This document shows, in pieces, positions 13,000 to 39,711 of a stretch of 64,000 bases of DNA. Both the position numbers and the translations under genes were made by a program. The first letter of the stretch is position 1, and the number at the start of each line of letters is the position of its first letter. The DNA is from Trebouxia sp. TZW2008 (taxonomy: Eukaryota > Chlorophyta > Trebouxiophyceae > Trebouxiales > Trebouxiaceae), in the NCBI GenBank assembly GCA_002118135.1, contig BDIU01000389.1:1-64000 (forward strand), written 5' to 3'. The notes under the pieces are model-generated. The model was not told the origin of the DNA and searched no databases. It saw only the letters and a program-made list of their open reading frames with translations.

Positions 13000-15900
13000 A
13001 TGTCGACTGCCTCTGAAGGATCACGCTTAGGGAAGCTCTTGACGCTGCTTGAGAGTGAGTTCCTGACGTGACGCGCTCTCCAGACATATTCTCGCGTGTT
13101 TCAAAGATTGTTCAGCGCCTTCATCTGACCGTATTCCCTGGGCTTTTGCAGCGGGTGGCAGTCTCGACATTCGCAAAGCTGCCGCGGAGCAAGTTGCGAA
13201 CATCGCACAAAATCATCCTGCGCAGCTCCCTTCTTTGCTGAGACATGTGTGTTACTCGCAATGCTCATGCGTCTGCTTGACATTCCTTATGTCCGCAATC
13301 CGACGAAAACCTCACTGCCTGTGCAGATCCGTCGTTGCTTGCGTAACAAGCAATGGGATACTAGAATCGCTGCCTCAACATGCCTTGGTCGAATGGCAGC
13401 TCACTTTCAGCACCACACGGCATCTTCCCTTGCACAACAGGCAGAGTCTAAACCCCTGAACATGCAAATCAAACTGGAGGGCAGTGAAGCCTCTGCTGGC
13501 TCAATGACATTTAGCAACTTTGACATCAGCCAGGTTTTGCAGCAAGGCACTGTCCTTGTGGCATCTGCAGGGCAGGTGGGGGTCATGACATGCATGACAG
13601 TGATGCACTGCAGAAGTGTCTGATCATCTGCACTACAACAGTCTGAGCCAATGCATAAGGACTGTAAGCTTCCATCTGCTGACTGCAATCAATACCATGT
13701 TTTCATGGCATGTCAGGAGTATGACGCTGCTGTGGAAGAAGGCACAAGAGCAGAGCAGCTTGTCAGGCAGCAGAAAAGGCTAAAGCAAAGGTGAAGAATG
13801 CTGCTGCTCTCTTGCTGTTCAGATGCGTTTGTGGTCAATCTTGACTTCATCATATATAAGGGCACACGCTCACAGCGTAATTGCTATACCAACAAGGCAT
13901 TGCCTAGGTGCAGTCATACCAATTAAAGTCCCATCCATCACAGTCTTGTTGGCTGGCTCATATTGCAACCCCGCTCCTCCTTAGGCATCCTGCTTGTTCA
14001 GCATTGATGTATTGCAGCAAGGCCTGTCTCCTTTGCACTGCAGGTTGGGACTGGGCGGCAAGATGGAAGAGCTGATGGACACCAGCCAGCTTGTTTCAGA
14101 CGCAGATTTCCTGTCAAGCTCCCAGGCCCCTGCAAAGGCTAATGGCAAGGGCGCTTCAGACCTACTGTCAGACATGTCAGGTCTGCAGCTTCTCCACCAG
14201 CAATCCTCTGCCAACTTGACAATCTCCTTTTGTTTCCATTGAGTAGTGATACCAATCTGTTTTGTCCTGTCTCTTGGGGGTCTGTTCTGGCAGTAATTCA
14301 TTATGAGCCAGAAACGCTTGCATGCTTGTTGAACGCAGGGCCCTGATGCCGCTGGTTTCGTCTCATAAGGCTGTCTCATTCATGCTAAGTCGTATGGTTG
14401 AGGCAGCCTACTGCTTTAATGCTGTGATAAGCTCCTTCAGGTCATGTCATTACACATCAGCAGCGCAGTGCAAGGTATCCTGCTCAACAAAGCAGGCAGC
14501 TTCTCATTTGCTTCATGATGCTGATACCACCAATGCATGTTGTCAAGCATTGCACATCAGGTAAACAAGCTTCAAACTCGGGATCCACAATGTGGCATAC
14601 AATGTGGCATGGCTTATTGTTGGGCATGTGCAGGCCTGAGTTCTAGGGAACGCAATCTGCTGAAGCGTAAGTCCAGGGCCCTCAACCGGTCTGGCTCCAC
14701 AGAGGGCTCCGGCAAGCGGCCTAAGACTAGCAATACAGCAGCAGACGCAGCCGCTGAGCAAGCTGAAGCAGAAGAGGATGGGCAAGAGTGGCAAGCGGTG
14801 GCAGCAGGGCAGTGGCCCTTCCAAGTGCTGTGTGACCAGATGTGCATTGATGTCCTGGACCCTGTATGGGAGGTCAGTCACAGCACGACCTGCTAGCACT
14901 CTATTGCCTGGCTTGCACACCTGCTGAGAATATTGGGCAACAAAGGATAGCATTTCAATGTTTGCACCATGCTGCAAACTCTGCTTCAACATTCAGCATT
15001 CCCAGCCCGTTGAAAACATCCTTTTGCACAATGACGTTTAGCACATTGCTTAAGACAAGCATTTGGCATTGTACATATCAGCGAGTACAGTCCGGCCTTC
15101 TTGCTTCCACTGTCGTTTGCAGGTTGCTGCAAAGGCATGCCAATGACAGCATTTTGTCTTGAAGCTTGTGGATTTGCTTGCGATTAAGTGCAGCATTGCT
15201 TTGTTGCTGTGTAGACACGGCATGGAGCAGCGTCGGCCCTGAGGGAGGTGCTGCGCCACCAGGCAGAGTCAGCTGCTGTGCTCGCCCCTGTCAGTCCTGA
15301 CCCCACAGGTTAGCAATTGCACAGCTCAGATGCGTTTTATATAGCTTGATCTACAGACCAACTCATACCTTATATTGCAGCAATTTCTGACGTTTGCACA
15401 GCCCTGGTGTTAGTGCTATGTTGCAGACCACACCGCATCAGGGGGATCTTTGAGTGAGATCCCACAGGCAGGACCACTTGCCTTGCAAGCCTGCAGAGTG
15501 TGCTGCCTGCTGAGCATGCCTACCAGCTGTCTGAGCAGGTAGAATAGATGACAACAGTTGTGATGTTTTGTCAGATGGGCTGTCTGCTGGCTGCTTGCTG
15601 AGTATGATCACCCACTATCAGGTTGATTGCTTGACTCAGCTGATGACTTCAATGACATTGTCTGCCAGCTGTCTCTATAAACTGGAACAGGACTGCCCAA
15701 TTCTTCGTTGGCTCATGACCTGTGTTGTCTCATGGGTGCAATATATTCCAACAGCATTTGTACCAACCTGTATGCTTTGGTCTGTATCCACAGCTGTCAG
15801 CCTCCTCAACTATGCTGAGCGCACACTGAGGCAGTCCTGTTGCAAGTCGTGAGTCATACAGAGGCAGCACTGCGTCTCAAGGCAACTTCGTTACAAGGAG

Positions 15901-18900
15901 TGTGAGTCAAGTCTGACCATCACATGTATCATGGTACGAACCTGTGGGCTTCCCTCTGTGTGCTTTGCTGTCAGGCTCCTGTGCTGAGCTCAGTACAAAC
16001 AGAGGCAGGATTGTGCCTCAAGGCACTTGTTTCAACAGGAGGAAGTCATGTCTCAGCATGGAATGGGCTATGGCGCAGGATGGGCGGCTCCTGGAAAGGA
16101 GGGGCGCCTGCATCTGCAGGGGGTCAGTCAAGATTCACCATGACCAAGGCAGCGCTGTAACAAAACACAGAGCACTTTTCACCCATATCTGGGTTGTGGT
16201 ACAGGTTGGGCAGCTCTTGCAGGGAGCAGTACAATGGTAGCATTCCTCAAGGCTATTCTGTGACAAGGACATGGTGAAACGTCACATTGCCCATGGATGT
16301 GATACAGGCTGGGCAGCTCCTGGAGGAGAGGGGCACCTGCATCTGCAGGGGGTCATCCCTACAGATGTGGGCACAGCCTGCCACAGCAATCAGCAATGGC
16401 TAGAAGACTGCACCATCCGTCTGCTGTGTGTGCTGGCCCTTGACAGATTTGGAGACTTCACCTCAGATCAGGTGCAGCTCCCATGCTCCCTTGGTTGACT
16501 GTACAGCTGCTGACCTGATGAAACATCACTTGCCTTCTTACAATCATCTCTGTGGATGCTGGCGCCGACAAGGTCTGGACAGATATGCCAGTCTATTGTG
16601 TGCATGTGGGTTGCCTGTATCCTGTCTCAAGACAAGCTGGCATGCTCACTGCCATGCATGATTTGTGCGCAAGCAAGACTTTGAGGCACTGTCAGTGCAG
16701 TGTGGGAAGGACTGCAGTACAAGCCATAGCTAAAAAGCATGCGCTGATTGTGTCAGATTTGTGTCTTGCAGATTGTTGCGCCACTATGGGAGACAGCAGC
16801 CCAAGCATTTGGCACAGCTGTGCAACCGCTACCTATAGCCAAGGCATGCTTCACTGTGTGACACATATGCCTGCCTCAAAGCATGTTCTATTGTGTGACT
16901 CTGTGTCTGCCTGCAGGTTGTTGCCCCAGTGAGGGAGACAGCAGCTCAGGCAGTGGGTGCAACTGTGCAGCCGCTACCTGCAGCCAGAGTCTGCTGTGGA
17001 TCGTGTACCTGCTTGCAGATTTTTGCACCAGTGAGTAGGACATGGATACTACAAGCAGCCCTGATCATGACTCTACAGCGTGCTCTAGTGTGTGAAGAGG
17101 CACAATCCGCCTGCACGCAGGTTGTTGCCCCAGTGAGGGAGATAGCAGCTCAGGCAGTAGGCACAGCTGTGCAGCCGCTACCTGTAGCCAAAGTCTGCTG
17201 TGGATCGTGTACCTGCTTGCAGGTTATTGCAGCAGTGAGTGAGACATGGAGGCTATTTGCAGCCCCAATCATGGCTTCACAGCAAGCTCTGTTGTGTGAA
17301 GAGACACAACCTGCTTGCATGCAGGTTGTTGCGCCAGTGCAGGAGAAAGCAGCTCAGGCAGTAGGCGCAGCTGTGCAACCGCTGCCTGTAGCCACAGTCT
17401 GCTGTGAAATGTTTGCCTGCTTGCAGGCGGTTTCAACAAAGAGCGAGACATGGAGGATACCTGCAGCCCCGATCATGACTTTACAGCAAGCCTAATGTGT
17501 GAAGAGGCACAACCCGCCTGCATGTAGGTTGTGGCCCCAGTGAGGGACACAGCAGCCCTGGCAGTAGGCGCAGCTGTGCAGCCCCACGCCATGATCCCAA
17601 TGCATGCTAAACCTTGCAAGTAGACCTTGAACGCTTGCAGCAGCTCAAAGCAGACCCAGCAAAATGTGTCTGCTTGCAGGTGGTTGCCCCGGTAAGGGAG
17701 ACTGCAGCTCAGGCAGTAGGTGCAGCTGTGCAGCCGCTGCCTGTAGCCAAAGCACAGACATTGCTGGCTCTGCTGCATCAGCTGGTGCAGCAGCAGCAGT
17801 GGGATGTGCGCCATGGCGGCCTGCTGGGCCTCAAGTACCTGCTGGCAGCACGCACTGATGCTGGCCACCACCTCATGCCTCAAGCCTTGCCCGCAGCCAT
17901 GCTGGGTCTCAAGGTGCTAACCTGCCCTGTGACATGTGTCTGAATGCATGCGTTTAACTCAAGATGATACAGGGTCAGAAGTCATTGTTGCTGGGAACTC
18001 AGATGGCATTGCATGTGTGCAGAACCTGTTGTACAGAATGACGGGATAGCGGGCTGGCTGACTGTCGGTTGGTCAGTTTGTCTACGTGTATGTGTGTCTG
18101 CGGATCTGCGGGTCTGCCTGCCTGTCAGCATGACACGCTGCGCTTCTTCTGCTATGTCATGCATCCACAGAGTGACGGCCTATACCTGCCATCTCTCCTG
18201 TGGGATGCACAACACAGCAGCACGGTGCGCACCTGCCATGAGACATGCTTGATCTGGCTAGCTGGCTGCCTGCCTGCCTGCCTGCCTGCCTGCCAAGCAG
18301 TGAAGTGCGCAAATTGCGCGGCATTGCCTGTTGCTGCAGTCAAAGGACATGAGTGACAATGTTTAGGCAGTTGGTGCTGAAGCGTTGCTGCCTTTGACCC
18401 CAGGAGCTGGCAGACAATACATGCACGCAACAACCCAGTGTTGCAAATTGCATTACAGCTGCCATTTGCTGCTGCCACAGAACAGCAGTGCTAGTGAGCG
18501 CTCCGTGCCAGACAGGGCTGTTGTGCTAGCAAGCACTTCATGAGGTGCACAAATCATGTGATAGTTACCATTGGTTGGTGTCATAGGACAAGAGTGATGA
18601 TGTGCGGGCAGTGGCTGCTGAGGCGCTGCTACCGCTGGCACAAGTGCTGGCAGCCAGCCCACCTCAGGCTCTGCATGACACCCTGTGGGACATCCTGCTT
18701 GAGGTGGAAGAGCTCAGCCCATCCACAGGTCAGCTTCCTTGCCCTTCGGTCATCACATTTGTGTTTCCAGTCGACATGATCAGCATGACATGCATTGAAG
18801 TCCTGCGTCAGCAAAGCTATGCATCTAATCAACATACCAGTTGCTTCCCAGTGCTGGAACGTGAAAGCATTACTCTTGCTTGCAATCCAGCACCAGGTCA

Positions 18901-21900
18901 CTTTGATTGCCCTGTAGTCTTCACAGCCATGTCCCAACTGCTCTAAGCCAACAAAAGCTGCTTCTAGATCAGGTGTTACAGGGTTTTCCTTTAAGTGTCG
19001 CCTGTCTTGTTCTATTTGCCATGCTTAGCGCTGACTTAGTGTGGCAACTCAAGATACATTACCCCTGCTGACGTTCAAGCAATAAGTCAGGTGTCTCCCC
19101 GCTACATCACTCATTCAGCTGCATTCCCTGCTGTATGATGGATGCTGCACCAAGGTCAGTCATGTCATTGAGCCTCGGCTCAAGCAGCTACCAGCTGATG
19201 ACCTTGATGCTGTGCACTTTGCTGGCCATTGTGTCTCATGCTTAAACACTTGTGTACAGGCCACATGTTTTGAATGAGCGCAACGGGATCAGTCTGAGTC
19301 GCGCCACATGCGTGGCGTGCAACCCCATATGCTACATGGTGTGTTGCAGGCAGTGTGCTGTACCTGCTGACAGTGGTCTTTGGCAGCTCCAAAGGCACAG
19401 GGAAGGATTCATTGAAGGGGCTGATGCCCCGGCTGTGGCCTCTGTTCAGGCATGCATTACCTAGAGTGCACTTGGCTACTGTCAACTGCATACAAGCCTT
19501 CCTGACAAGCAGCAGTCAAAGCCACACCTGGCTGACTGCATCTGTGCTGCAGGCAGCGTGCTCTACCTGTTGACGGTGGTCTTTGGCAGATCTGAAACCA
19601 CAGGGAAGGATTCATTGGAGGGGCTGTTGCCCCGGCTGTGGCCCCTGTTCAGACATCCTTTGTCCAGAGTGCGCCTTGCTACTGTGGACTGCATACAAGC
19701 CTTCCTGACAAGCAGCAGCCAAGGCCACACCTGGCTGACTGCATCTGTGCTGCACACACTGTTCAGGTCGACTTTTCCCTGCCATGTCTGCTGTGAGCTG
19801 GCTTGATCTGCGCTGCATCAGGCTACTTGCAGTGAGTCTGACACAGGCTGTGCGTGTTGAAGCGCATGTCACGCCACTGTTGCACCTGCAACGCTTGCAA
19901 TGGTCAGGAGCATGCCAAAGACAATGCTTGCACGCGTCCGTGTTGCCGTTGTACTCTGTTCCATTGCTCATGGTGATGCTTTTGCCTCAATTCAGGAGTG
20001 TTTGCAGTCTCATAAACGCTGGTCAATAGGCTGGATGGCCCAAAGACCTAGACAAGAAAGTCAACACAACTGAATGCACAATCCCACTTGTGCTGATACG
20101 TCTGCTCCACTTCACAGGCTAGTATTCCAGAACCTTCTCCTGGAAGCAGACTCAGTCGTTGTCAGCAGCAGCCAGCAAGCCTGGGCACTTCTGATAGCCT
20201 CTGCCCAAAATTCGACCTTTCTGCAAGCTGCAAACCCACAGCTGGTGGAACAACTTTTCAACATGGCATGCACGCCAACAGGGCACGTGCTCAATCCACA
20301 ACACCTGCTCAGCTTCCCCATGGCTGCCAGCAGTGATGGGTTGCTGCCACCTGGCACGCCCTCGGGGCCCCACAAACATACCCTGGGGGACGAGGAGGGG
20401 TTTGATGTGGCTAGAATGCGCATGGCGGCTGCTCAAGCCCTAGGGCAGATGGCCAGCAAATTCACTTCCTCAGGCAAGGCAGTAATGCAGTGAATCACCA
20501 TATCTCACGGTCGACGTGAACACACTTGACATGAAGTGATATGCAATATGCAAGCATTGGAGATTTATTCACTAGAATGATGGTTCACTGCAGCACTGCA
20601 GTTCTGACTTCAGGTCTGTCTTGCTTTGACTGCTGCAAAGTTGCAACCATCAGCAGCTTTGACTTGACCCAAGCAGTCAGCAATCTTGCCCCTGCATGTG
20701 AGCTGGGCGACCATGTCAAGTGCACCTCAACATGCTGCCTTGGCTGCATAGCTTTCACAAGCAAGATGACCTTAGAGTCATGTTGTTCATCAGCAAATTT
20801 GTGGTGTGTACAGGTGGCAGTAACCCAGTCCTTGCAGCAATCCTGCACCATCTCAGCGTTCACAGTGCCACCTCACGCATCATTGCAGCTTTGACAGTCA
20901 CTGCGTGGCGGCATGCATCAAATGATGCCCCCCCCTTAGACCCCCAAGAGCCCCCGACAGACCCACCTCCCACTGCCAGCACAGCACAACAAGAGACCGC
21001 AACTTCAGCCCCTCCACAGCCCCCCACCAAACCCCCTCCTGCTGTGAGCACAGTGCCACAAGAGGTTGTCCAGGCCCTATTTGGGTATGTGGCAACGCCT
21101 GCTGTGGTGGTATCAGCTGGAGGCGCCATCCAATGCTACACTGAGCTTGAGTCCATGTATGCTTCCATGCAGCAGCATGCACAGGTACTTATCCCTTGCT
21201 GTGTTCTGTAGTGTGTGCAGTCGATTACCACTTGCTGGGATCTATAGCGTGCACATGCACACACCTCCTTGCAACTACCAAGCTGGCTATGCGATAGTGC
21301 CCTCAGACAAAGGCATGCTGCTTGCCTCTCACACGGTGAGGCCATGGTCACCATGCACAATAGCAATCACAGTTGTGCTCGGGTTTGCTGGAGCGCCAAC
21401 TTCTCCAGTATTTGAGAGCTGGCTGTTATGCTCTTCTGCGTCAAGTTAGACACTCCTGAAATCTGCATGACAATACATCTCGCCCTGTGAGCAGCCAAGC
21501 TTTGGATGATATCGGCGGAATGGTCTGTGACAGGTGCTTTGCCGTTGATTTGCATGTGCATGAGTGCTTCCACAGCTATTGCATATGCAGCTTGCATCAA
21601 TTCAATTGTGTCTCATCCATTGCGTGGCAAGAGTGGACAGAAGCCAATTAGGAGTCATCATGGATGGCTCACGGGCTGCATGACAAACCCTATGGTGCAG
21701 CAGAACCTCATCAACTCCCAAGCGCATTGCACAGGAGATGTAATAAGATGACAGATGCTGGTTCAGCATTCATAGCTGCGGTGGACCTATGCGAAACCCT
21801 TCAGATGGAGGGGAGCCGAAAAGGCTGCCATAAATGCATACTTTGTTTGTGTCTTATGTTGTAAACGCGTAAATTGATCAATGTGATGTGACAACAGGCG

Positions 21901-22797
21901 CTGGTCCAGCAATGTCACATAGCTGGGGTGGATCTCAGGGGAGCAGGCTTGCAGCCTGGAATCAATCTGGTAGCTGCACATTTGAACTCAGACCAGGCAA
22001 ATGCCCTACTGGGGTTGGTGCCAGCTGCCCCTGCCCGCCCTGCCCTTGCTGCTGCCAGAAATGCCCTTGCTGGCAGCACTGCTCAGGCCAGCTCACATGA
22101 AGCCATGTACTACTGCACAGTAAGTCACAATACCTTTTGGGTCCTTTTGTACACAAGACAGCCTGTGGTACTGCTGAATCTGTCTTGAACGCCAGAAATG
22201 CCCTTGCTGGCAGCACTGCTCAGGCCAGGTCATATGAGGCCATGTACTGCACAGTATGGCATCTGCCTCCTTGCCCTGTCTGCATGCAATTAGGGTAAAC
22301 GGCATCACACAACTTCCAACTGCCCTAGATAGACATCATGCTTTTCTCAGCATCACACAGCCTATAGCAAGGTGAGGGTGGTCAGCACGGGCTCCTTAGA
22401 CACACATCAAGCAGCCTGTAGCTTTTCTTCGATGCTCTGATAAGCTAATAGACAAGTGTCAATTGCCCAAGATAGACATTATATGTGTTTCAACTTTGTA
22501 GAGCCTTGGCAAGGTGAGGATGGCACTATGTGTTAGCAGGATCCATGCAGATCTACATCAAGCAGCTTGCAGCTGATAAGCTTATCAATCTCATGTGCTG
22601 ACAGCATAATCTCATGCTGGGAAGGTGAGCCTACCGTCAGCAATGTATGTTTGGTTCACAGCTGACAGCCTGCCTGGCAGCCGCAGTTATGCACCTGGCA
22701 CCCCTGCCTCTTGAGCTGACTCAAATCATCCAGCCCCTTACGTACAGCAGGGCAGCTGAGTTGCGTCGTTGCGTTGGCTGGCTAAAGCATGTAAAAT

Positions 22798-22858
<61 letters not shown>

Positions 22859-25800
22859 AATGACTCCATCAGCTGAAAGCGCATCTTGGGTGGCTTGCAG
22901 GTGACGGCCTGCCTGAGCAATTGTACATTGGCACAGCTGCCAATCAAGCTGCATGAAGTCACACAGCCCCTGATGGCTGCCCACAGTAAAGATGCAACCC
23001 CCCTTTCTACCCACCTTTCAATCACTTGGTGCCCAAGCATTGGCACAGCTCACGCAGCAAACACTGTATGCCTGGTTTACAGGTGACGGCATGCCTGGCA
23101 GCAGCAGTTGTACACTTAGCACAGCTACCACCCAAGCTAAACCAAGTTATTCAGCCACTGATGGCTGCCCTCAGGAAAGAGCCCCAGCCCCCCTTCCAGA
23201 AGGCTGCTGCTCAAGCTCTGGCCCAGCTTATGCTGTTGTGCTTGTCACGTCAGCCTTGTCCCAATGATAGGGTCATCAGGAACGCTTGTGCCTTGCTACA
23301 TCAGCAGCAGCATGCTGCGGTGGCCCCCGAGTCTGCAGAGCCAGCTGACGTGGCTCGGTCACCAGCACTGCAGGTGAATGTTTATCTGATTTCAACATCA
23401 TGTAGCACTGTAAAATGTTGCTGGTGAGAATTTGTTTGTAAGTTGTGATCTTGCCAGTATGCACACAGCTCATGTGTTGACAGCAACAACTTCCTTGTAC
23501 GACAAGTGTATGCTAATTTTACAGCAGATGGTCTTGTGGTTGCTGACAGTTGCAAAGCAGTCAATTGCAGCGCCTGACCTGCTTCAGGGTGCGCAGTGAC
23601 CACAGGCTTGTCAAAGCCCAGAGTGCTTTGGTTATTGCTGTTGTCAAAATGCAGCAAATCATGACAGGCGCGCTGGTCCAGGCTGCATACATAATGCATG
23701 CAAGCTGGCTAGTTGCTTTTGCATCCTTGCGCGCAAGACAAGGAACCATTGGCTTCATCTATATGCTATTGCAAGTCACAGGTTCATGTTGAATGCATGC
23801 AGGGCCCTGCCGCATTCTTGCAGTCACTGGCCTACAGCTTTGGCAGCAGCGTCTTCACCAGCCTGCCAGTCCTTCACAAGCTCACAGTACAACCCCTGCT
23901 TCACACACAAACCCCCATCCCAACTCACCCCAGCCCAGACCCCTCCAACCCGGCCCCCAATCCCCCAGCTGCAGATCCTGCCCAAGCTACACAGACAGCA
24001 GAGGCACTGCGTGTGTTGACAGTTGTGGGTCCAGTCATTGACAACAGCCTGCTACCAGAAGTGCTGCAAGTCATGCCTGCTGTGGTGCAGTGTTGTGGGC
24101 ATGCTGGACCAGAAGTGTGCAGCAATGCTGTCAACTGTGGTGTTGCCCTGGCTGCTGCACACAGCCAGACAGTATTGCCTGCTCTGCTCAGGTAAAAGTT
24201 AACCTCCTTTTGCAGTCACAGAACCTGTGCGGTTGTGTGGACATGCTGAGCCAGAAGCGTGCAGCAATCCTGTTGAGTATGGTGTTGCCCTGGCTGCTGC
24301 ACATAGCCAGACAGTGCTGCCTGCTCTGCTCAGGTGATGCGAGGCTCCACATGCAGTCATAGTGGCGGAACTTCACAGTATAATTGGGCTTCTTGTGTAA
24401 CTGTCTGGCAGTGCGCACACTTCTGACCTTTGGGCACGTGTGGCTTTGAGCAATTGTTTGCTTGCGAGGGTGTGGCTGCCACATGACATACATTGTTGAG
24501 TGATCATGGCCAATGGGCACTCATATACGTGCAGCCCATGCGGTGCATACATGCACATGGTGCTGCCACAAATGTTCAAAGATATGTCCTTGTTGTGACA
24601 TTTGTGTTGTGTGAACAGGCATCTGGTGCCGCTGTTGGAGGCATCAGCTCCTCCCACTGCCCGTCAGGGTGCAGTGAGTATGATAAGGGCCCTTGTCCAG
24701 CAGCTCGGCAGTGGGCTGGTGCCCTACCTGCTGCTGCTGGTGGTACCTCTCATGGGCAGGTTGCACAGCATGCAGACATGATGTACCTCATTGACGTACT
24801 CATGCTATGTGAACAGGCATCTAGTGCCACTGTTGGAGGCATCAGCTCCTCCCACTGCCCGTCAGGGTGCAGTGAGCATGATAGGCGCCCTAGTGCAGCA
24901 GCTGGGCAGCGGGCTGGTGCCCTACCTGCTGCTGTTGGTGGTTCCCCTCATGGGTCGCATGAGCGACCCTGACCCTGCAGTGCGCCAGACTGCCACAGCC
25001 ACCTTTGCTCCTGTTGTGGCGCTACTGCCTCTAGCTCAGGTGTGTGCTGCTCATTCTGCAATTGCACCTGCATGCTTGTTGTCCAAGGGGAAGACAACAG
25101 ACTGTTACTGCGCATCAGGCAGGTGTGAGCCTTTTGGCCTGTAAGTCACCACCATGAATGGTTGTATTGGACACAACAATACCCTTTTGAGCTCAAGCTC
25201 CAGCTCAACGCACAGGTACTCATACAAGCATATAAAGAGGCATCACAATAGGTCCCGACAGTACTTCTCAGTTGAAGATGCTATGCGTGATCATTGCCAA
25301 GAGTGACTGTGGAGGGTACTTGCGTGCTCAAATCACTGACATAGTGAATGAGTTGCAGGGGATGGAGCCGCCTGCACAGCTAGATGAGCAGCAGCGGGCA
25401 GCCTGGCTCAAGGACAAGCAATTCCTGCACCAGCTCATGGACACCTCCAAGGTAAGGGCTTGTGTGTGCAGCACACAGCTTCTTGGGCTCGTGCGTGCAG
25501 CACACAGCTTCTTGGGCTCGTGCTGCGCACAGTGACTGACACCTGCTTACACACCTGACGATGTGCCGTTTTCACTAGTTCAAGCACCCCATGCCATGTT
25601 GATTTTGGCTGCAGAAGTGCGTATAGTGCATGTTCAGCTGCATTTCATTGCTTGCAGGTTCACGCTGCCAGCCATTCATCTTACTCACTGCTCTGGCAAG
25701 CTTGCTTTTGCTGTTGGCTGTAGCTCATCAGGCCCTTGAGTCCTTAGGAATGTTTGTGCAGAGTGCACACAAGCTTGTCTCTCCAGATGTGCACAATGCA

Positions 25801-28800
25801 ATCCTACACAAACAGTAGAGCAATGTGCATGCTGAGGACATTGAAATGAACATGAGATGGCGGTGTGAGCTGCAATTCTTGCACCATCATAGCGCTGCAT
25901 GACACATAGCGCAATAATATGCAGGTGGAAGACTTTGAGCTGTCAGTCAAATTGCAGTGTGAGCTACGGCCATACCAGCAGCAGGGCATTGCCTGGCTGG
26001 CCTTTCTGCGCCGCACTGGCCTGCACGGCTGCCTTGCAGATGACATGGGCCTTGGCAAAACTTTGCAGGCCACTGCAATCATTGCAGGTACATATTACTG
26101 CACCATGTGTCTTCTGTTATGAGATTGATTTGCCTGTTTGGTGGTCTGCCATCATAGTCTCGAGACTAAAGGTCTCAGCCCCAGACCTCATGCATCTGCA
26201 TCCAGATGTAGGGTTGATTGTAAACAAGCACAAGATTCTGACAAGCCAGTGGCTGAGTATTGCTAGTGACAAGTCTGATGGTGAAGCAACAAACCCAAAG
26301 AAGCAGTTGCACAAAGTCCATCAAGTCCGTGTTGTGTGGACGACAATGGACTCACACACCATTGCAGTCTACTGCACAAGAGTGCTGTTGAGCATACACA
26401 TATTGCTAGTCTTTGTTGCATGGTCCCTGAGCAACATGCAAGAATTGCAAACTTGCTGGCTTAATGCACCAATTTGTCATTTGTCGGATCTTTTGTACAC
26501 CAATATGCTTCTGTTGCAGCTGCCATTGTGGACCAGCAGTCAGCTGGGTTGGCCCCCCCACCCACTCTCATAGTATGCCCCCCTACCCTTGTCTCCCACT
26601 GGGCGCATGAGATCGGAAAGTTTGTGGAGGGCAGTCTGCTGCAGCCCCTGCAGTACCAGGGCACACCCAAGGAAAGAGCCCTGCTACAGCCCCTGCTCAG
26701 TCAGCACAATGTGCTGGTTGCATCCTACGAGAGCGTAAAGGCTGATGTGGACTGGTTTGCTCGCTACCACTGGCTTTACTGTGTGCTGGATGAGGGACAC
26801 ATCATCCGCAACCCAAAGTCAAAAATCACACAGGTACTGCATGCATAGTGTCAAGGGTTTTGCAATGTAATGCTCAGCACTGCATTGTGTCTTGAAGACT
26901 GCAGTGCAGTGCTTGGCACAAGGACTGCATGCGTGATGATGAGCATTTTGCAGTGTAATGCTCAGCACATTTGGTGTGCTGTTTACTCGATGAGGGATGG
27001 GATGACCGCAACCCAAGTCAAAGATCACATAGGTGTTGCATGCATGCTTGATGAGAGTTCTGTGTGAAGCTATGCATAGCAATCTTGGCTGTACTGCATG
27101 CTGGGTGAGGGGCGCATCATCCAAAATCCAATGTCAAAGATTTCATAGATATTGCATGCATGACGTTCTCCGCTTTGTGCATGCATGATGTTCTATGCTC
27201 TGCATTGCAATGCTCAGGTCAATAGTGTTTTGTATGAGGGGCACATCATCCGCCACCCAAAGTCAAAGATCACACAGGTAATGCATGCATGATACTGTAT
27301 ATTCTGTAATGCAATGCATGTCCTGACTGCAGAAGGCTGCATGGCATCAGCACTTTGGGTTCAGAATTTGCTTACATCGTGCATGTGACATTTACACTCT
27401 ATACCAAGCCACAAGTGCTGCATTTGGTATTTTATGCAAAAGGCACGTACAAATTCATTCTTGATTGGGTTTGCAGGCATGTAAAGCACTGGTGGCCCAG
27501 CACCGCCTGATCCTGACAGGCACGCCCATTCAGAACAATGTGCTGGAGCTGTGGTCCCTGTTTGACTTCTTGATGCCAGGCTTCCTAGGGCCCCAGGCCC
27601 GCTTCAGCGCCCTGTACGGCAAAGCCTTGACAAGTGCGCGAACCTCCAAGAAGGAGTCTAAGGAAGCTCAAGCTGGCCTGCTGGCCATGGAGGGACTCCA
27701 TAAGCAGGTCAGCAACACCAAATCCCCAGCAGTTATGCAGGGGTTTCACTAACAAAGAGACAGTAAAGGAATTCAAGGAGGCCAAAGTTGGCCTGCTTGC
27801 CAGGGATGACATCCAGAAACAGATCGGCACCATCCATGTCTTCCGCATTATACATCATGCTCAGCACGTGAGTCACCTGCACAAGCAGATGAACACCATC
27901 AAGTTGTTCACCAGGCCCGTGTCAAATGCAGAAGCAGGTCAGCACAACCAGCTTTCCCAGCAGCTGCATGTCACACCCCGTAGATGAGTCAACTGCACAG
28001 GCAGGTGGGCAATGCCAACTGATTCATCAGCTGTTTGTCACACCCAGTAACAAAAAGCTGATTGGGCATGAAACTTTAGCCTTTCCTAGCTGTTTGCCCT
28101 ACTCAGCAGAGAGAACCATCTGGGTACAAAAAATGTGTGCTCTCAAAGCCATAAGATACTGTACTTGAACAAGCCAAGTGGTCAAGTAGGATTGCACCAC
28201 CAAACCTTCCGCCTGTTGTGATTTTTTGTCCGCACAGCAATTTTCAGTGGAAATGCTGCAGGTGAAGCCGTTCATACTGCGGCGCACCAAGGATGCAGTG
28301 CTATCCGACCTGCCCCCCAAGATCCTGCAGGATGTGTATGTGGAGCCCAGCCTGCTGCAGCGCCTGCTGTACCAGGACTTTGCCCGCTCAGATGCCTCCC
28401 AGCAGGTGCAGGGCGCCCTCAAGACTGAGGGCTCTGCTGAGGCCACTGCAGACAAGGCACCCCATGTCTTTCAGGTTGATCACTGCTTGCCAATGCCAGC
28501 CTATCTTCAGTTAGTCACTACCATGTTGGTCTCACTGGTGTCTTTTTTGGGTTTGTAGTATACACTGATTCTTCAGTACAGGTGTCTGTCACTTGCTGAC
28601 CACGACAACGTTACAGATGGCTGTTCATGCACATTCTATTGATGCATCAATCAATCACTTGTCCAACCGTCTCTTTGTCCATCTATCCACCAGTGCATCT
28701 GCTGTTGATGCTGGGCTTTGCATATGACCTCATGTATGATCAGCAGATTGAAATCCCAGCACATAGGCTGTGTGCTACCAACACTAGCTCCAGAGCCTCT

Positions 28801-31800
28801 TATCGCTGCTGCCCACTTCTGCCCCATGACTGCATCATGACTGACCAAAAGTCGCCTGGCATGCATTGTCTATACAAGCTGCGCGGTCACCAACTGCTGT
28901 TGCTCTGAACAACTCAACCCTCACTTGGGTACTGCAAGGCCCACTCCTTCCACATGACAGCACCCACTTGTATGACAGGTCTCAGGCTGACATTCTATGG
29001 TCTGGCATGCAGACTCAACAATACCTGCGCAAGCTGTGCAGCCACCCACTGATGTTGCTCTCAACAACTTGGGTACTGCATTGCTCACTTCTTCCACATG
29101 ACAGCACCCGCTTGTACCATATGACACGTCTGAGGCTGAAATTGCATGGCCTGGCATGCAGGCTCTACAATACCTGCGCAAGCTGTGCAGCCACCCGTTG
29201 CTGGTGCTGGACCCTGCCACCCCTGCCCATGTTGAAGCTGTGGAGAAGGCCACCCATCTGCCCGCCACCTCTGCCACCGCCTGGAAGGCTGCCCAACCCC
29301 ACCTGCACCACCTTCAACATGCGCCAAAGTTGCTGGCGCTCCAGCAACTTCTACAGGTCCCTCCTTGCAGCAATTGCATGAGGTCCCCAGATTGCTGGCG
29401 CTCGAACAGCTTCTGCAGGGCTGACGTAGCCAGTTTGCGCATTTGATCCCAAGCTGTACATGTATGCTTCATGCCTAGACAAGTTTGCCTGTGCTGTGCT
29501 GTGTTTACGCTAACCCCCAGCTCCACCTGTACCACCTGTGATGTCCTCCTAGCTGCTGGCACTCAAGCAGCTTCCTCAGTAGCATAATTCTGCTGGGCAT
29601 TTGGCAGTCACAGCATTTGCGTTGCCTCAGTGTTGTATTGAACTATGGCAGGAGTGTGACCTTGGGTGGCAGTCAGACAATTTGCTTTGCGTCATTGCTC
29701 CTGTTGAGCTGCGGCAAAAAGGAAGAATTGCATTGTCTCACTGGCGCAACTAATTGCAGCAGGGCAAGGATCTGCTATGTCTGACTTGTCTGTTGCACTG
29801 TGGCAGGAGTGCGGCATTGGGTGGCAGTCAGAGGATGCAGAGGGCAGGGCAGGAGCAGCAGCCCCTGAGGCAGGGCTGAATGAGGCTGGAGCGGGCCATC
29901 GGGTGCTGGTGTTTGCTCAGCTGAAGGGCCTGCTAGAACTGGTAGAGGCTGATGTCCTGCGCCCTGGCGGTGTCTCCTTCCTGCGCCTAGATGGCAGGTA
30001 CTCTTTTTGGCGGCCACTCTCTTTTGCTGGTTTTGCAAGTAGTATTGCCTCTGATGTTGGACGACGGCAAGCAGCATCCTTGAGGTTGACCCTCCGCTGC
30101 AATTCTAGTAATTCATTGCTCTCTTGATGCAGTGGCTGTGTTCACTCTCAATCCAAGTGTCTGTGCTGGGGAGTATCACTGCTATCAGATCGCACTGATG
30201 GGCAGTTGTGGCACTTTTGTCTGATTCTCACGCTCTCAATGGTGATCCCTAGCTACCATTCTGACTGCTGCTGTGTGCTGCCATGCAGTGTGGTGGCAAA
30301 GAAGTGGTTCAGCATAATGCAGCAATTCAACAGCAACCCCCCATAGAGGTGCTGCTGCTGACCGCCCATGTGGAAAGCCTGGGCCTCAACCCCAGTGGCG
30401 CTGTCCTGTGACATACACTGTAAAGTCCAGCAATTGGTCTCACAGCTGCTGTTTAATGTCATGCAGTGTGGAGGCCAAGAAGCGGTTCAGCCTAGTGCAG
30501 CGCTTCAACAGCGACCCCACCATAGAGGTGCTGCTGCTGACCACCCATGTGGGGGGGCTGGGCCTCAACCTCACCTCTGCTGACACAGTCATCTTCCTGG
30601 AGCATGACTGGAACCCCATGAAGGACCTGCAGGTCAGGAATCATGCATCAGTTGTGGTTGAGTCAGGCTCGCACACCTTGAATGCAACCCTGGCATCAGC
30701 AATATTGTACATGCAAGAGGTTAGAAACTTCCCTGCAAACAACCTATCGTCAACTCCACCATTGATCCCTTGTTTGTATGGCAAATGCCTTTGCAATTAA
30801 GCAAGCATTTGCTTAAGGCCATGTAGGACCTGCAAGTCAGCATCACCCCTGTCACAAAAGGAGTCATGATACCAAACCGACTGAAGATCCTTTTCCTTCC
30901 TTTCTCTGTTCTTTGCTCTGTGTTTCTTGTCTTGTCTTTTCTTGCTTTTTGCCTTCATTTCATTTCTTTTCGCTTCTTTCTGCAGGCTATGGACCGAGCC
31001 CACAGGCTAGGTCAGCGCCGCATAGTCAATGTGTACAGACTGTTGACGCGTGACAGCCTGGAAGACAAGATCATGGGTCTGCAGCGCTTCAAGCTGGATG
31101 TGGCCAACTCTGTTGTCAACCAAGACAATGTCTCCCTAAAAAGTATGGATGCTGGACGCCTGCTGGACCTGTTTACTCTAGAGCAAGACGGCAAGCCCGC
31201 AGCTGACCCAAGTAAGCTGCAAAAGTCTTCATACTTTGTGGGTTCTTGCTGACTGAAGGTCTGTAGCATCATCTAGAGATGTCGAGGTCAAGATGCTAAC
31301 AACAGCAATATTCATTTCAAGCCCTGTGAGACCACAAGTGTACCAAAAGTACCATTCAATATACCATGTTTGCCTGAAAACAATAGATGCTGGTTGCCTG
31401 CTGGACTTGTTCACTCTGGATCAAGACGACAAGCCTGCTGCTGCCCCAGGTCAGGCACAAGTCTGCTGTCAATGAGCTGTCACAGCCACTGTAGTGGTCA
31501 AAACAATGTTACTTGCGCTTGTATTTTGCAGTTTGTTTGGTCAATAACAGATAATGTCATCTCTTTCAATCATGTCTTTGCACAGAGCTTTATACAAGGC
31601 TGAGGGGGACATTGTGAGATTCTTTGCAATGCTGGGCAAGCCACAACTGTGTCTGCAACTTGTTGCAGTATGGGCAAGGCTTGTGTGTGAGTGCAGATAA
31701 AGCGGCAAGCAGCAGCAAGCCAGGCGCTCTCAAGTCAGTGCTAGAGGGACTAGAAGATCTGTGGGACGAGAAGCAATACGCTGAGGAGTTCTCCCTGCAA

Positions 31801-31836
31801 AGCTTCACTACCAAAATGACTGCCAGCAAGCGATGA
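13000..31836 (+). CDS. BTAF1: TATA-binding-protein-associated factor BTAF1/MOT1, Snf2-family ATPase
   Basis: MOT1 uses ATP to remove TBP from DNA in the nucleus. Exons: 13000-13054, 13152-13246, 13327-13575, 13717-13790, 14044-14180, 14634-14872, 15215-15308, 16308-16471, 17680-17913, 18587-18728, 19553-19766, 20118-20473, 20814-21184, 21898-22119, 23083-23373, 23803-24191, 24817-25039, 25359-25451, 25925-26087, 26520-26833, 27477-27707, 28262-28474, 29162-29356, 29807-29997, 30467-30632, 30986-31211, 31697-31836. All phases match and give 1826 aa, close to human BTAF1 (about 1849). The N-terminal ~1200 aa are HEAT repeats ([55 protein letters not shown]). From ~1215 comes the ATPase: [48 protein letters not shown]. 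The C-terminal [15 protein letters not shown] block is diagnostic. Its introns carry many exon relics, listed separately. Confidence 0.97.
16079..16240 (+). repeat. Decayed copies of BTAF1 exon 8 5-prime end
   Basis: The acceptor and first ~50 bases of the exon at 16308 (GGGCAGCTCCTGGAGGAGAGGGGC region) recur at 16079 (longer copy, up to the CATCTGCAGGGGGTCA block) and in shorter form at 16205. The spacing is 126 and 103 bp. Both copies are frame-shifted relative to the real exon. Confidence 0.8.
16772..17600 (+). repeat. Higher-order array of BTAF1 exon 9 relics
   Basis: The [14 protein letters not shown] exon start, with its TGCAG acceptor, occurs at about 16772, 16917, 17121, 17325 and 17528 before the functional copy at 17680. 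The three central intervals are 204, 204 and 203 bp. Each 204-bp unit also holds a weaker half-copy ([11 protein letters not shown]), so the unit is a dimer. The period of 68 codons keeps one frame open for about 188 codons (16929-17495). No good donor follows these copies, so they are probably intronic relics. Confidence 0.9.
18262..18294 (+). repeat. (CTGC)n microsatellite
   Basis: About seven perfect GCCT/CTGC tetranucleotide units in a BTAF1 intron, immediately upstream of a decayed exon 10 copy. Confidence 0.9.
18345..18420 (+). repeat. Decayed copy of BTAF1 exon 10
   Basis: This resembles the exon at 18587-18728 ([18 protein letters not shown]). The copy reads KDMSDNV, stop (TAG), [10 protein letters not shown] and then diverges. 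The in-frame TAG and changed acceptor show that it is not used as the same exon. The distance to the real exon is about 240 bp. Confidence 0.85.
19350..19552 (+). repeat. Upstream tandem copy of BTAF1 exon 11
   Basis: This is a 203-bp head-to-tail duplicate of the exon at 19553-19766 and is clearly homologous along its whole length ([39 protein letters not shown]). It has its own TTGCAG acceptor, but its 3-prime end abuts the next copy without a GT donor: the CTGTGCTGCAG that ends it acts as the acceptor of copy two. Read-through hits a stop within a few codons of the second copy. Confidence 0.9.
22195..22256 (+). repeat. Decayed copy of BTAF1 exon 14 3-prime end
   Basis: This repeats the [12 protein letters not shown]...EAMY end of the exon at 21898-22119 together with the donor region. 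It lies about 140 bp downstream of the real end. Confidence 0.8.
22662..23040 (+). repeat. Two decayed copies of BTAF1 exon 15
   Basis: Copies starting at 22662 ([21 protein letters not shown]) and 22901 ([17 protein letters not shown]) precede the real exon at 23083 ([19 protein letters not shown]). Spacings are 239 and 182 bp. The second copy keeps a TTGCAG acceptor and the LMAA block but degrades after it. A (TC)n tract separates the two. Confidence 0.88.
22800..22854 (+). repeat. (TC)27 microsatellite
   Basis: A pure dinucleotide run of about 55 bp in a BTAF1 intron between two decayed exon 15 copies. Its purity points to recent expansion. Confidence 0.97.
24231..24332 (+). repeat. Decayed copy of BTAF1 exon 16 3-prime end
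   Basis: This repeats the [32 protein letters not shown] end of the exon finishing at 24191, followed again by CAG and a GT donor (GTGATG). A small frame change in the middle breaks it as coding sequence. Confidence 0.85.
24619..24759 (+). repeat. Intact, frame-neutral extra copy of a BTAF1 HEAT-repeat exon
   Basis: The copy is 141 bp (47 codons) with a GAACAG acceptor, open frame ([12 protein letters not shown] ... [15 protein letters not shown]) and CAG-GTTGCA donor. It repeats the first 141 bp of exon 24817-25039, 198 bp upstream. Both ends have the phase needed to splice between exons 16 and 17 without a frame change, so it could be a cassette exon adding one HEAT helix pair. Confidence 0.88.
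25468..25526 (+). repeat. 29-bp tandem duplication
   Basis: Two nearly identical adjacent units (GCAGCACACAGCTTCTTGGG core) in a BTAF1 intron just after the exon ending at 25451. This is a recent small tandem duplication. Confidence 0.9.
26974..27279 (+). repeat. Three decayed copies of the BTAF1 DEGH (motif II) exon end
   Basis: The end of exon 26520-26833 ([17 protein letters not shown] plus donor) recurs at about 26974-27032, 27086-27149 and 27224-27279. Each copy is followed by the same GTxxTGCATGCATG intron start. Frameshifts and substitutions (for example [10 protein letters not shown]) disable them; the third is the best preserved and keeps CACAG-GTAATG. Confidence 0.88.
27755..28040 (+). 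repeat. Tandem relics of BTAF1 exon 21 3-prime end
   Basis: The exon end ([19 protein letters not shown], donor, then AGCAACACCAA intron bases) recurs first as [23 protein letters not shown] (about 27755-27822), then as shorter CACAAGCAG-ATGAACACCA-type units near 27875, 27927 and 27993. The spacing shrinks to about 50-65 bp. Confidence 0.8.
28868..29060 (+). repeat. Decayed copies of BTAF1 exon 23 5-prime end
   Basis: The start of the exon at 29162 ([16 protein letters not shown]) recurs at 29012 ([17 protein letters not shown], with its TGCAG acceptor) and more weakly at about 28868. The period is near 150 bp. Flanking blocks (CTTCCACATGACAGCACCC) repeat with the same period. Confidence 0.85.
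29370..29580 (+). repeat. Decayed copies of BTAF1 exon 23 3-prime end
   Basis: The exon end [12 protein letters not shown] (ending at 29356) is echoed near 29375-29420 (TGCTGGCGCTCGAACAGCTTCTGCAG) and near 29550-29580 (GCTGGCACTCAAGCAGCTTCC). Exon 23 therefore has relics on both sides. Confidence 0.75.
29637..29695 (+). repeat. Decayed copy of BTAF1 exon 24 5-prime end
   Basis: This repeats the acceptor and start of the exon at 29807 (TGGCAGGAGTGCGGCATTGGGTGGCAGTCAG) about 165 bp upstream with several substitutions and loss of the downstream frame. Confidence 0.8.
30289..30412 (+). repeat. Frameshifted copy of BTAF1 exon 25 (helicase motif V region)
   Basis: This is 178 bp upstream of the real exon at 30467. 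It shares acceptor ATGCAG and the VxAKKxFSxxQxFNS start, then a one-base deletion in the CCCC run puts TAG in frame. The motif itself is also degraded (THVGGLGLN becomes AHVESLGLN). Confidence 0.9.
30818..30842 (+). repeat. Short relic of BTAF1 exon 25 3-prime end
   Basis: CCATGTAGGACCTGCAAGTCAG repeats the ATGAAGGACCTGCAG-GTCAGG exon-donor junction at 30620-30637 with an in-frame TAG and a lost donor consensus. Confidence 0.7.
31365..31449 (+). repeat. Copy of BTAF1 exon 26 3-prime end with intact frame
   Basis: This repeats [24 protein letters not shown] from the exon ending at 31211 as [24 protein letters not shown], followed by CAG-GTCAGG. The frame is open and a donor-like site is present, but there is no good acceptor at its 5-prime end. 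Confidence 0.85.
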
Positions 31837-32700
31837 CTGCTCTGATGGCTCAGCATCGGCAATGCTGTCGAAAGCACAACTTCAGCTGATGGTGGTGGTG
31901 GTGGCGGTGGTGGTGGTGGTGGTGGTGGTGGTGGAGGAGGAGGTGGTGGAGGTAGTGGTTGTGAGTGGTTGTTTGGTGACAGTGAGCAGTGACGGTGATG
32001 ATGCTGGTGGTCAGTGTCAGCAAGGCTGCTGCAAAGCAGAGCAGAGGTCACAAAGGCAATGAAGTGCTCAACCAGGTTGCCATCTGGCTGTTCAGCAGCC
32101 CTGTGCTGCAACCATGTTCTGTGCAAATGGCATTGATTGGTGGGCAAAGAGAAGCTAAGTGGCATGACATCCAAGGCACACCACAGCAACTGATTGCATC
32201 CGTTGGCTAGGGAACTCATTCTTACCTGGCTGAGCAGATGAAACTGGGTATGCGGCTCTGTGTGCCTAGCTGATTCCCCAAGCCATGCAAGCGTGTGTCT
32301 GTTGCTGGCAATTGCAATGTTGGCCTCTGAATGGATCACTGAAACTATGAATGCTGCAATTTGCCGATCTAAATGAATCAGCAGCAGCAATTGCAACAGC
32401 TGTCTAGGTGGAAGGAGGTGCCCATCCACATTCACTACATTTGTCATGCTGGCTAGTTTACATGAGGGATCTGCTGCAAATCAATGACGGCTGAATCAGG
32501 TCGCGTTAAACAGTTCTCTCGAGTCTTGCTATTGCATACCTTCGGGCTGCAATTCCAGGCAATACTCTGACTCAAAATTGAAATTTCCCTGCAACAAGGT
32601 AAATTTTCTGCCAATGTGCAGACTAATGTGGTGACCATAAGTTGGTCAACCTGCTCGATTTCTGGTGCGGTCCTGCCGTGCGTGCCGCATCTGAACCGAA
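31837..32700. other. Spacer between BTAF1 and ASCC1
   Basis: The spacer holds the BTAF1 3-prime region with a GGT repeat (31891-31960) and the ASCC1 promoter. The long minus-strand frame across it is proline-rich only because it translates the GGT repeat; I do not call a gene. Confidence 0.6.
31891..31960 (+). repeat. (GGT)n microsatellite
   Basis: About twenty GGT/GGA trinucleotide units 55 bp after the BTAF1 stop, probably within its 3-prime UTR. Confidence 0.95.
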
Positions 32701-34559
32701 ATGGCTTTCAATGTGCTCGATTGTCAGCTTCTGCACGTCGATGGCAGGACATACCGCGTGGTGGGGCAACCTGGGGTCCCTCATCAAGCACAAAACAACT
32801 CACAGCAACCCATCAATTTTGCCGAGGAGGAGCCAGAACTCAAATCTGGCGAGGGCTCCTCCTTTGACGTGCAACTGGAGGATGCGCAGTACGTCATCAG
32901 ACTAGCTTATGACGCTGAGGTACCTCCCTGAAGCTCTTTGATCTGTGTGCTAGCACTGACCTCTGACCTAATACGGTAAGAGGAGGTCAGGCCTGCTACA
33001 ACTGCAGATCTTCCCTCACATTATAGGGCAGAAAGGCAGAACGAAATTGAAACTAGAACAGGACACTGGTGCTACCATCACCATTCCCAGGAAGAACAGC
33101 ACTGCACTGCCAGGCTAAAAAGATGCAGATGTGGTGATCCGTGCGCCATCTCATGCGGCTGCTGTCAGCGCTGCCACCCGCTTGGAGTTGATTGTTGGCA
33201 ATGTGCTGGATTCCAACAAGTAAAAGATGTGCTGGCAAGCGCTGCATGCCGTGAAGATGGGTGTCATTCGTGTCATGATGTATATGCAATGGCTGCAGGT
33301 TGGAGTACACCCACTTTGTATCAATTCCGCTGAACAGTACAGAGGCACAAACAGCGTTTGAGAGATTCAAAGCAGCCGTTTGGGCTGAGCCAGAAGCAGA
33401 TGAAGCTGCAATTGAAGAGTCAATGTTTGTGGCAACTAAGCAGATCCATCTCACTGTCATGATGCTGAAGCTGTACAGTGAGCAGGAGCGCCATGTTGCC
33501 AAGCAGGTGAACTGATGCATGACTGAGCCAAGTAGGCTGAAGCTCATCCTCAGTCATGCAACACTCAAAGATGAGCAGCAACATGTATTCTTGACTGCCA
33601 GCTGATTTCATTGCATATCCACAAACTCAATCATGCTGTAATCTCATGTCGCAGAACGTCAGAACCCAAAAAGCATGCACAGATCTGTTGAGATGATTGC
33701 ACAAGACTGCTGCTCCCAAAATCGCTGTTATACCGATCTGGGGAAGCATTTTTGTGCCTGCAGACCCTGCACAGCCTCCAACCAACCTTCCAAGCTATTC
33801 TGGAGCAGCAGCAGCTGGCTATACATGCGAAAGGCCTGCAGTACTTGAATGATGACCCTTCTGCCATGCACGTGGCATATGTGGGTGTGCAAGACCCCCA
33901 GGGACAGCCAAACAGTGTTCAGAAGCTGCAGCAAATCTGCGCAGCTGTTGTTGACGCTTTCTCAGATGCAGGCTTGCTGCTGAGTCGTGATGAAAGGTGC
34001 ACAACACCGCCTTTGCCTTGGATGTTTTGCTCATGCCTCAGCAGGAGCAGAAAGGCCCATCATAACAAATTCAACATTGCAAGTTCAGTGGTTGCACCAT
34101 CTGCTGTGCATTATGTGTGGACATTGCAGAGTATGATGCAGCATGAGGCATACCTGTTACCTACCTTGCATTTGCGCGGGCACAGGTGTCATATCAATCA
34201 AATCAATTGCATAAGTAGATGCCAAACTTGCGACGTCAGTGATTTCTGATTTTCCAAGTTTGGCTGCTTGTGTTTGCAGAGATGTGAAGCTACATGCCAC
34301 TGTGCTGAGCACCCGGCATCGACGACGCACGCCTGGCAACCAAGGGCAAAGCCAAAACAACAGTGATGCACCTCAGCATTCCCATCAGTCTCGCCCTTTT
34401 GACAGAAGGCCATTTGACGGCAGGTGGCTGTTGGCCAATTATGCAGATCTGGATCTGGGAATCCAGCAGATTCCACAAATGCACTTGTCACAGCGTGGCA
34501 AATATGACGATGATGGGTACTACCATGCTTTGGACAAAGTGGCATTATGTGCTAAATGA
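32701..34559 (+). CDS. ASCC1: ASCC1-like protein: KH domain plus 2H phosphoesterase
   Basis: Exons 32701-32919, 33008-33219, 33299-33506, 33764-33996, 34280-34559 join in phase to 383 codons, near the length of human ASCC1 (about 400 aa). Residues about 60-143 are a KH RNA-binding domain with the IIGQKGRTK GxxG loop, then TGATITIPRK and a last helix AAAVSAATRLELIVGN. The rest is the AKAP7/2H phosphoesterase fold with two HxT motifs (QIHLTVMML and VKLHATVL). ASCC1 belongs to the activating signal cointegrator complex, which acts in transcription, alkylation repair and ribosome quality control. Oddity: codon 110 is TAA (33116-33118), in a loop of the KH domain with coding similarity on both sides; see findings. 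It is tandem with BTAF1 and convergent with the LMBR1 gene, 98 bp away. Confidence 0.88.
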
Positions 34560-34657
34560 ATCCAATCTACACAGGGCATAGGCCAACTTTGAAATCTAGG
34601 TGTACCACAGCAGCAACGCTAGCAAAAAGACATGCTGAAAAGACAGTGTTCAAAAAT

Positions 34658-39055: not shown

Positions 39056-39711
39056 TCTCGCTGGGGCCGCTGAGCAGACAACCGGCCAGGTTGCCTCACA
39101 CCTGTGTTGGCTTTTACGATTTCTGAACCCTAGACGTGAATTCTCATTAGGTCTTGGGATAGGTACAACAGTGGACCACTTTCCACAGAAGCCATGGCTC
39201 CGCGATGCCACGATGCGAAGCATTGCACTGGTGAAGTGGGCTGTACATGAATCAACTCATTGCTTGCATTCAAGTCTAGAAGCTACCAGTAATTGCTGAT
39301 GTTTGGACCCACATGAAGCCATGCTATCAAGTCATCAGCATGTTTTGACGACACTGGCAAGTATGAGATGGCATCTCCAGGCAGATCTTGAGCAGCCCGC
39401 ATGCACACAATGCAGAAGCTACAAGAATCAACGGCGCATGCACAACTTGAATACGAAACGGTTTCAATGTGGCAAGTCAACAATTGTTGGCATTTGACCA
39501 GCCACGGACGCCCTCTCGGCGATACTGAGCTGGACGGCAATCTCTGAAGAATAGTCGATTGCGCAATCGGTGAAGGGTGACGAGTTCACTGCTTGTGCAG
39601 CATTCAAGGGGTCGTGTGCCGCCGTCACAGCCCCAACCGTGCAACACATCAGTCCTGGCTGTCAAGACCCCTACTGACCATTCCACCTGTGTGACCTGAT
39701 GACTGTCAGAC
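39056..39711. other. Upstream region between the LMBR1 and DnaJ-like genes
   Basis: Divergent spacer holding both promoters. I see no repeat or other gene. The 5-prime end of the DnaJ-like gene is uncertain, so part of this may be its untranslated leader. Confidence 0.4.

Follow-up and report, generated by a model that had tools for sequence, protein, structure and literature searches.

The BTAF1 gene

The DNA analyzed here (the window) is a stretch of 64,000 nt within contig 367 of the Trebouxia sp. TZW2008 genome, which amounts to 68.5 Mb in 527 contigs. Its main feature for present purposes is a BTAF1/Mot1 gene on the forward strand, modeled in 27 exons by spliced alignment to the ortholog (P0001) from Trebouxia sp. 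C0005; the aligner itself returned 28 exons, and two that had been split at a 69-bp alignment gap were merged. The aligned coding sequence is 5484 bp long and is followed by CGA TGA, with an intact frame and no internal stop codon. Identity to the full C0005 protein is 76.3% by this alignment. For the protein assembled from open reading frames, the nearest relatives are the BTAF1 proteins of Trebouxia sp. C0005 and A1-2, at 83–85% identity over the region searched. All comparison of BTAF1 with C0005 was at the protein level. The best PDB matches to the exon 21 region are chains labeled Helicase-like protein, which we take to be Mot1. A run of TGG follows soon after the BTAF1 stop codon (31890–31969).

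Direct copies of exon edges

A self-BLAST search of the gene (positions 13000–31836, E ≤ 1e-3) finds 26 direct pairs and one inverted pair separated by no more than 1.5 kb. In ten dinucleotide shuffles of the gene, the same search found no direct pairs, and one inverted pair in a single shuffle. Direct repeats are therefore present well above background, the point on which an earlier, sequence-only reading had staked its claim that BTAF1 introns hold copies of their own neighboring exons. That reading named 14 exons with copies in direct orientation; self-BLAST together with an ungapped offset scan finds copies beside all 14 and beside no others, at 15 splice junctions (Table 1). Nine of these are acceptors (exons 8, 9, 10, 11, 15, 17, 23, 24, and 25) and six are donors (exons 14, 16, 20, 21, 23, and 26). 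The exon 10 copy, at an offset of 241 bp, is below the self-BLAST threshold and was detected only by the offset scan.

The copies lie in the intron adjoining their source exon: all nine acceptor copies are upstream of the source and all six donor copies downstream, the sides required if tandem duplications are to be hidden by splicing. They were also described as partial, carrying one splice junction and not a whole exon, and the alignments bear this out. Most straddle the splice site, those of exons 14 and 15 in part only as gapped alignments, and the alignment of the exon 23 donor copy stops exactly at it. The exon 11 copy, with 202 of the 214 bp of its exon, stops short of the donor. Besides the exon copies, there are three pairs of intron-only repeats at two places in the gene. 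A further repeat, of 67-bp offset, is found within the exon 21 copy.

Table 1. BTAF1 and the local direct copies within it. Positions are those of the window.
Feature	Position	Strand	Source copy or evidence
BTAF1/Mot1 gene, 27 exons	13000–31836	+	spliced alignment to Trebouxia sp. C0005 ortholog (P0001)
Intron 7, intron-only direct repeats (15760–15834/15934–16008; 15855–15920/15996–16059)	15760–16059	+	self-BLAST
Decayed copy, end of intron 7 with exon 8 acceptor and start	15982–16126	+	source 16218–16355
Exon 9 start, five copies with the acceptor, in part a 204-bp array	16757–17584	+	source 17662–17754
Decayed copy, exon 10 acceptor and start	18339–18392	+	source 18580–18633; offset scan only
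Exon 11 copy, 202/214 bp, 88% identity, offset 203	19340–19551	+	self-alignment
Copy of exon 14 end and donor, offset 137	22191–22261	+	source 22054–22127
Intron 14, intron-only direct repeat, offset 143	22307–22574	+	self-BLAST
Exon 15 acceptor and start, two copies (22641–22738, 22891–23005)	22641–23005	+	source 23062–23195
Copy of exon 16 end and donor, offset 142	24227–24335	+	source 24085–24193
Exon 17 acceptor and start, one copy, 91% identity, offset 198	24605–24756	+	source 24803–24954; offset scan
Exon 20 end and donor, three copies	26968–27317	+	source 26768–26887
Copy of exon 21 end and donor, with intron	27766–28052	+	source 27651–27936
Copy, end of intron 22 with exon 23 acceptor and start	28875–29059	+	source 29030–29208
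Copy of exon 23 end	29516–29579	+	source 29292–29356; stops exactly at donor
Exon 24 acceptor and start, one copy, offset 155	29612–29677	+	source 29767–29832
Exon 25 acceptor and start, one copy, one frameshift, offset 178	30260–30394	+	source 30438–30573
Copy of exon 26 end and donor, offset 238	31363–31464	+	source 31125–31228

In total, 4442 of the 13347 intron bases of BTAF1 (one third) are inside local direct repeats, and 12 of the 26 introns carry exon copies. To call the introns "filled" with copies, as was done from the sequence, is accordingly fair to this third but overstated for the gene as a whole, since 14 of the 26 introns (1–6, 11–13, 15, 17–19, and 25) have no local direct repeats, apart from a 29-bp minisatellite of 2.7 copies in intron 18 (25456–25531).

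Distribution beyond BTAF1

A sample of the genome was searched for similar repeats: 18 blocks on 17 contigs, 176,221 bases altogether with one block short, taken not at random but at a preset position (bases 20001–40000 of the contig). Within 1.5 kb, the blocks contain 166 direct pairs and 32 inverted ones. Direct pairs are present in 17 of the 18, and 20.2% of all block bases are in direct local repeats, with a range of 0 to 45% for single blocks. Of the 32 local inverted pairs, 22 come from three blocks (L005, L009, and L010). With the offset scan added, the direct repeats resolve into 103 independent families, 86 of them at offsets of at least 90 bp; three shuffles of each block yielded no families.

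A non-random choice of four other SNF2 genes, each with several domain matches, was also searched. All four have exon copies, and for 7 of their 17 domain exons a copy is found locally (E ≤ 0.01); an SNF2 match with in-frame stops (C329:42305–42766) was excluded from the 17. Counting families at offsets of at least 90 bp, the density is 0.80 per kb in BTAF1, 0.75 in the four SNF2 genes, and 0.49 in the blocks. In the window outside BTAF1 it is 0.31 and 0.12, the lower value being that of the downstream part (31837–64000). A 213-bp tandem duplication of 1.8 copies, with 85% matches, is also found outside BTAF1 (55859–56248).

Whether the pattern is general was put forward as a check on the original observation, and across this sample local direct duplication is general. 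The supposition that BTAF1 is special is not supported: the blocks have between 0 and 11 families per 10 kb, BTAF1, divided into two 10-kb halves with a small overlap, has 6 and 10, and all four of the other genes have exon copies. BTAF1 is a good example of a real and widespread duplication pattern.

Two explanations can be weighed at this point. The copies are known here from assembled sequence alone, and might be artefacts of assembly; this is very improbable given that the exon parts of the BTAF1 copies differ from their sources by 5–29%, that the window contains no N, and that direct pairs occur in nearly every block. Their location, in introns adjoining splice sites, could also bring to mind an introner-like mobile element or retro-insertion. 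A comparison of 119 units found six cross-unit matches (five pairs), each inside one block or gene, and no shared element; in addition, the presence of intron sequence in the copies shows that spliced RNA was not their template. An origin of this sort is about as hard to credit as an assembly error.

Unit size and breakpoints

The duplications have a preferred size. Offsets of 120–200 bp account for 53 of the 86 block families at offsets of at least 90 bp, and the median offset is 170 bp in the blocks and 198 bp in BTAF1. Aligned length matches offset to within −20 to +9 bp in ten listed pairs, among them the exon 11 copy, with an offset of 203 bp and an aligned length of 212 bp. This copy has TGTG-TGCAGGCAG at both breakpoints, one of which is the acceptor and the other interior to the exon, and GCAG has been reused as acceptor. 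By eye, near-identical ends of 9–14 bp are found in three of the ten pairs (not all independent), including exon 11, and none are clear in the rest. The offset is a multiple of three in only one of 13 BTAF1 cases (exons 9 and 20 excluded); later indels shift offsets, so this figure is given no weight.

If the units were decayed tandems, homology to them would extend, in split form, into the sequence between the copies. Such split homology is strong in sum; it is significant at p ≤ 0.05 for 6 of 14 BTAF1 events (Stouffer z 12.1), and singly for 38% of the 69 testable families among the 86 from the blocks (z 27.3), where the summed z in part reflects gapped extension of the same alignments. For block families with a gap of at least 100 bp, 21% are significant singly and 79% are not. 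Because 62% of block families are singly non-significant in this test, some copies may be local insertions instead of tandem duplications.

Age, decay, and selection

Decay is graded, as was noted from the sequence: identity of the exon part ranges from 0.71 to 0.95 for 19 copies at 12 junctions, with exons 10, 16, and 17 outside the count. For BTAF1 copies, identity is 83% in the exon part and 72% in the intron part. At 96 informative sites, where exon and C0005 ortholog are not the same, the copy matches the exon in 71 cases and the ortholog in 7, and has a third state in 18. This comparison includes 22 copies, those of exons 10, 16, and 17 among them, with exons 9, 15, and 20 counted more than once and a few copies lacking an informative site. 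Most of the copies that can be judged in this way therefore postdate the split from C0005.

Very young copies are scarce. Of the 103 families in blocks L003–L020, three are at least 95% identical, 10 are 90–95%, and 63 are 80–90%, and these figures are flattering in that they come from the best ungapped segment of each. The scarcity could result from a past burst of duplication, or from collapse of near-identical copies during assembly. RIP-like hypermutation was considered and rejected, there being no strong C-to-T bias in the changes from exon to copy (80 C>T plus G>A changes and 62 A>G plus T>C, uncorrected for composition).

The copies had been proposed to supply decoy or new exons, and selection might conceivably keep them as alternative exons, either cassette or mutually exclusive. 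Splice sites are often retained: acceptor AG in 14 of 14 copies, including all five of exon 9, and donor GT in five of the seven that can be aligned. This makes 19 of 21, although by our hand estimate some 17 of 21 would survive drift at a copy-only divergence near 0.1. Differences are most frequent at third codon positions (0.148, 0.095, and 0.246 for the first, second, and third positions, and 0.285 in introns, for 12 events with one vote each, exons 10, 16, and 17 again outside the count). The third-position excess is a ratio of 2.0 (CI 1.4–2.7), above our neutral ceiling of about 1.7, which falls within the interval. This pattern is close to that of a drifting copy paired with an exon that changes mainly at silent sites. 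An inference of strong coding constraint on the copies was rejected: the ratio is 2.45 when the five exon 9 copies are counted each, and 2.0 by event. The acceptor array of exon 9 (16899–17495) has a 198-aa open frame running over several of the 204-bp copies, and is a candidate cassette exon. Against retention as exons, stop codons are near neutral frequency (5 in 551 codons, compared to a rough neutral estimate of about seven), several copies have frameshifts, and each copy is aligned across one junction of its exon and not both. The copies look like neutral relics in near-neutral decay, and a selected role as exons is improbable.

Proposed mechanism

The most probable source of these copies is a widespread process of short tandem duplication, with those that span a splice site hidden by splicing and then decaying. 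A mutational process in this Trebouxia-like lineage would produce direct tandem duplications, mostly of 120–200 bp. Where one spanned a splice site it could be harmless, provided that the spliceosome used the outer junction (the distal acceptor or the proximal donor), and the redundant piece of exon would become intron. The true exon would stay under selection while the copy drifted, and introns would lengthen by absorbing relics of the edges of their own exons. The copies are presumably skipped by splicing. The duplications themselves may stem from errors of repair or replication where breaks are staggered or short direct repeats occur. The rarity of families at 95% identity or more (3 of 103), which a steady process would not lead one to expect, speaks against this account, as do the few families in the part of the window downstream of BTAF1 (0.12 per kb). 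A more specific proposal would be an unusually active tandem duplication at nucleosome scale (120–200 bp), favoring the exon-intron junctions of transcribed genes, responsible for most of the lengthening of introns after the split from other Trebouxia, and recently slowed; taken as a whole, this is doubtful.

Relation to exons and splice junctions

The association with exons was examined in the blocks using an exon predictor, a codon model trained on BTAF1. Its performance on BTAF1 (75% sensitivity, 3% false positives) is not independent; at the four SNF2 loci, read by eye, it recovered 13 of the 17 domain exons with the correct strand. Of the 86 families, 38 touch predicted coding sequence, where 2000 rotations give an expectation of 25.1 (P 0.001). 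Families with exactly one coding copy number 33 (15.9 expected), a figure that none of the 2000 rotations matched, and in five both copies are coding, where 9.2 were expected (P 0.08 for a number this low). Duplicated bases are not enriched in coding sequence, with a share of 0.18 compared to 0.16 (P 0.25). The excess of mixed families, in which just one copy is coding, indicates that pairs made up of an exon piece and a non-coding neighbor are general. The excess may come from position, selection, or detection, the last because constraint acts on the parent exon, whereas in a pair of intron copies both members diverge.

In BTAF1, 15 of 17 events include a junction. The 17 count the two intron-only places (three pairs) and exclude sub-repeats of the exon-copy arrays, the intron 18 minisatellite of 29 bp, and the repeat of 67-bp offset inside the exon 21 copy. 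A simulation of uniform placement with decay expects junctions in 49–55% of detectable events (P 0.001–0.004). Duplication might on this evidence start preferentially at splice sites, so that exon edges are over-copied, for instance through breaks at co-transcriptional RNA-DNA hybrids, or through pairing of a TGCAG acceptor motif with CAG-rich codons. The acceptor sequence TGCAGGCAG that the exon 11 breakpoints share with the exon interior, and the number of block families that touch coding sequence, are in keeping with this. Intron-only events are under-detected, however: if their detection is about one third of the junction rate, which is our estimate because most intron halves of known events fail to align, the expectation rises to about 73% (P 0.12). 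Among the block families, 48 of 86 touch no predicted exon, although the predictor misses some, and there is also the unraised coding share. It is possible that the junction itself is targeted, but a process directed to junctions is an unlikely explanation for the pattern, and widespread short tandem duplication is preferred.

Comparison with known processes

Internal gene duplication was reportedly surveyed by Gao and Lynch in 2009. Such duplications are likewise short and intragenic, include both exonic and intronic sequence, and are tolerated through splicing. In the present genome, however, all five genes searched (BTAF1 and the four chosen SNF2 genes) carry copies, BTAF1 many of them, and it is existing introns that appear to become longer.

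Tandem duplication is an established source of introns, according to two reports (PMC3443670, PMC4974935). In the AGGT model, as it is outlined in one of them, an exonic segment containing AGGT is duplicated to give a new intron, both of whose splice sites come from the duplicated AGGT (PMC3443670). The duplications proposed for BTAF1 resemble this in being direct and tandem, with the redundant copy removed as intron, but the BTAF1 units straddle one existing splice site and would enlarge the intron already there. A potato RdRp gene is described in the other report as having a tandem duplication with intron-exon structure and a second duplication, of 83 bp, inside an intron (PMC4974935). That case concerns a single gene and the gain of a new intron, whereas here duplication is recurrent within the gene and widespread in the genome.

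As to origin, repair of breaks with staggered ends gives short direct tandem duplications, and one study suggests it for natural insertions in humans and plants; tandem duplications were shown there with induced breaks, and are named as the commonest type among human insertions under 100 bp (PMC8355091). The mode here, in contrast, is 120–200 bp. Schiml is said to have written on small tandem duplications at breaks in 2016. Introner elements have reportedly created intron sequence in many genes (PMC9860276); unlike these, no sequence family is common to unrelated loci among the 119 units compared here. Tandem or mutually exclusive exon duplication differs in turn, in that it copies a whole exon with both splice sites, and no BTAF1 copy aligns over both junctions of its exon.

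In the literature on duplication, introns, and Trebouxia (few subscription journals included), no title or abstract among the matches listed concerns recurrent junction duplication in Trebouxia, or a mode of 120–200 bp. The kind of event is already known; its density, its size preference, and the link to intron length are new, as measured in this genome alone.

Intron length

The 12 BTAF1 introns with exon copies have a median length of 658 bp, compared to 346 bp for the other 14 (Mann-Whitney P 1e-4). With repeat-covered bases subtracted, the median of the copy-bearing introns is 336 bp. All intronic repeat members were removed in this calculation, and longer introns give more room for detection. 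That copies would go with longer introns was foreseen in the sequence-only reading, and as an association it holds; it supports, without proving, the view that duplication lengthened the copy-bearing introns.

The origin of intron sequence is poorly known. Here one third of the intron bases of a gene are within recognizable local repeats, which in many cases are relics of the edges of its own exons, and the difference in length between introns is accounted for. If the same is true genome-wide, one well-defined type of mutation would explain how introns have grown in this lineage. The copies would then serve as a clock, and also as a library of decoy splice sites that covers all stages of decay. 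Intron 14 also has a perfect CT run of 27.5 units (22800–22854).
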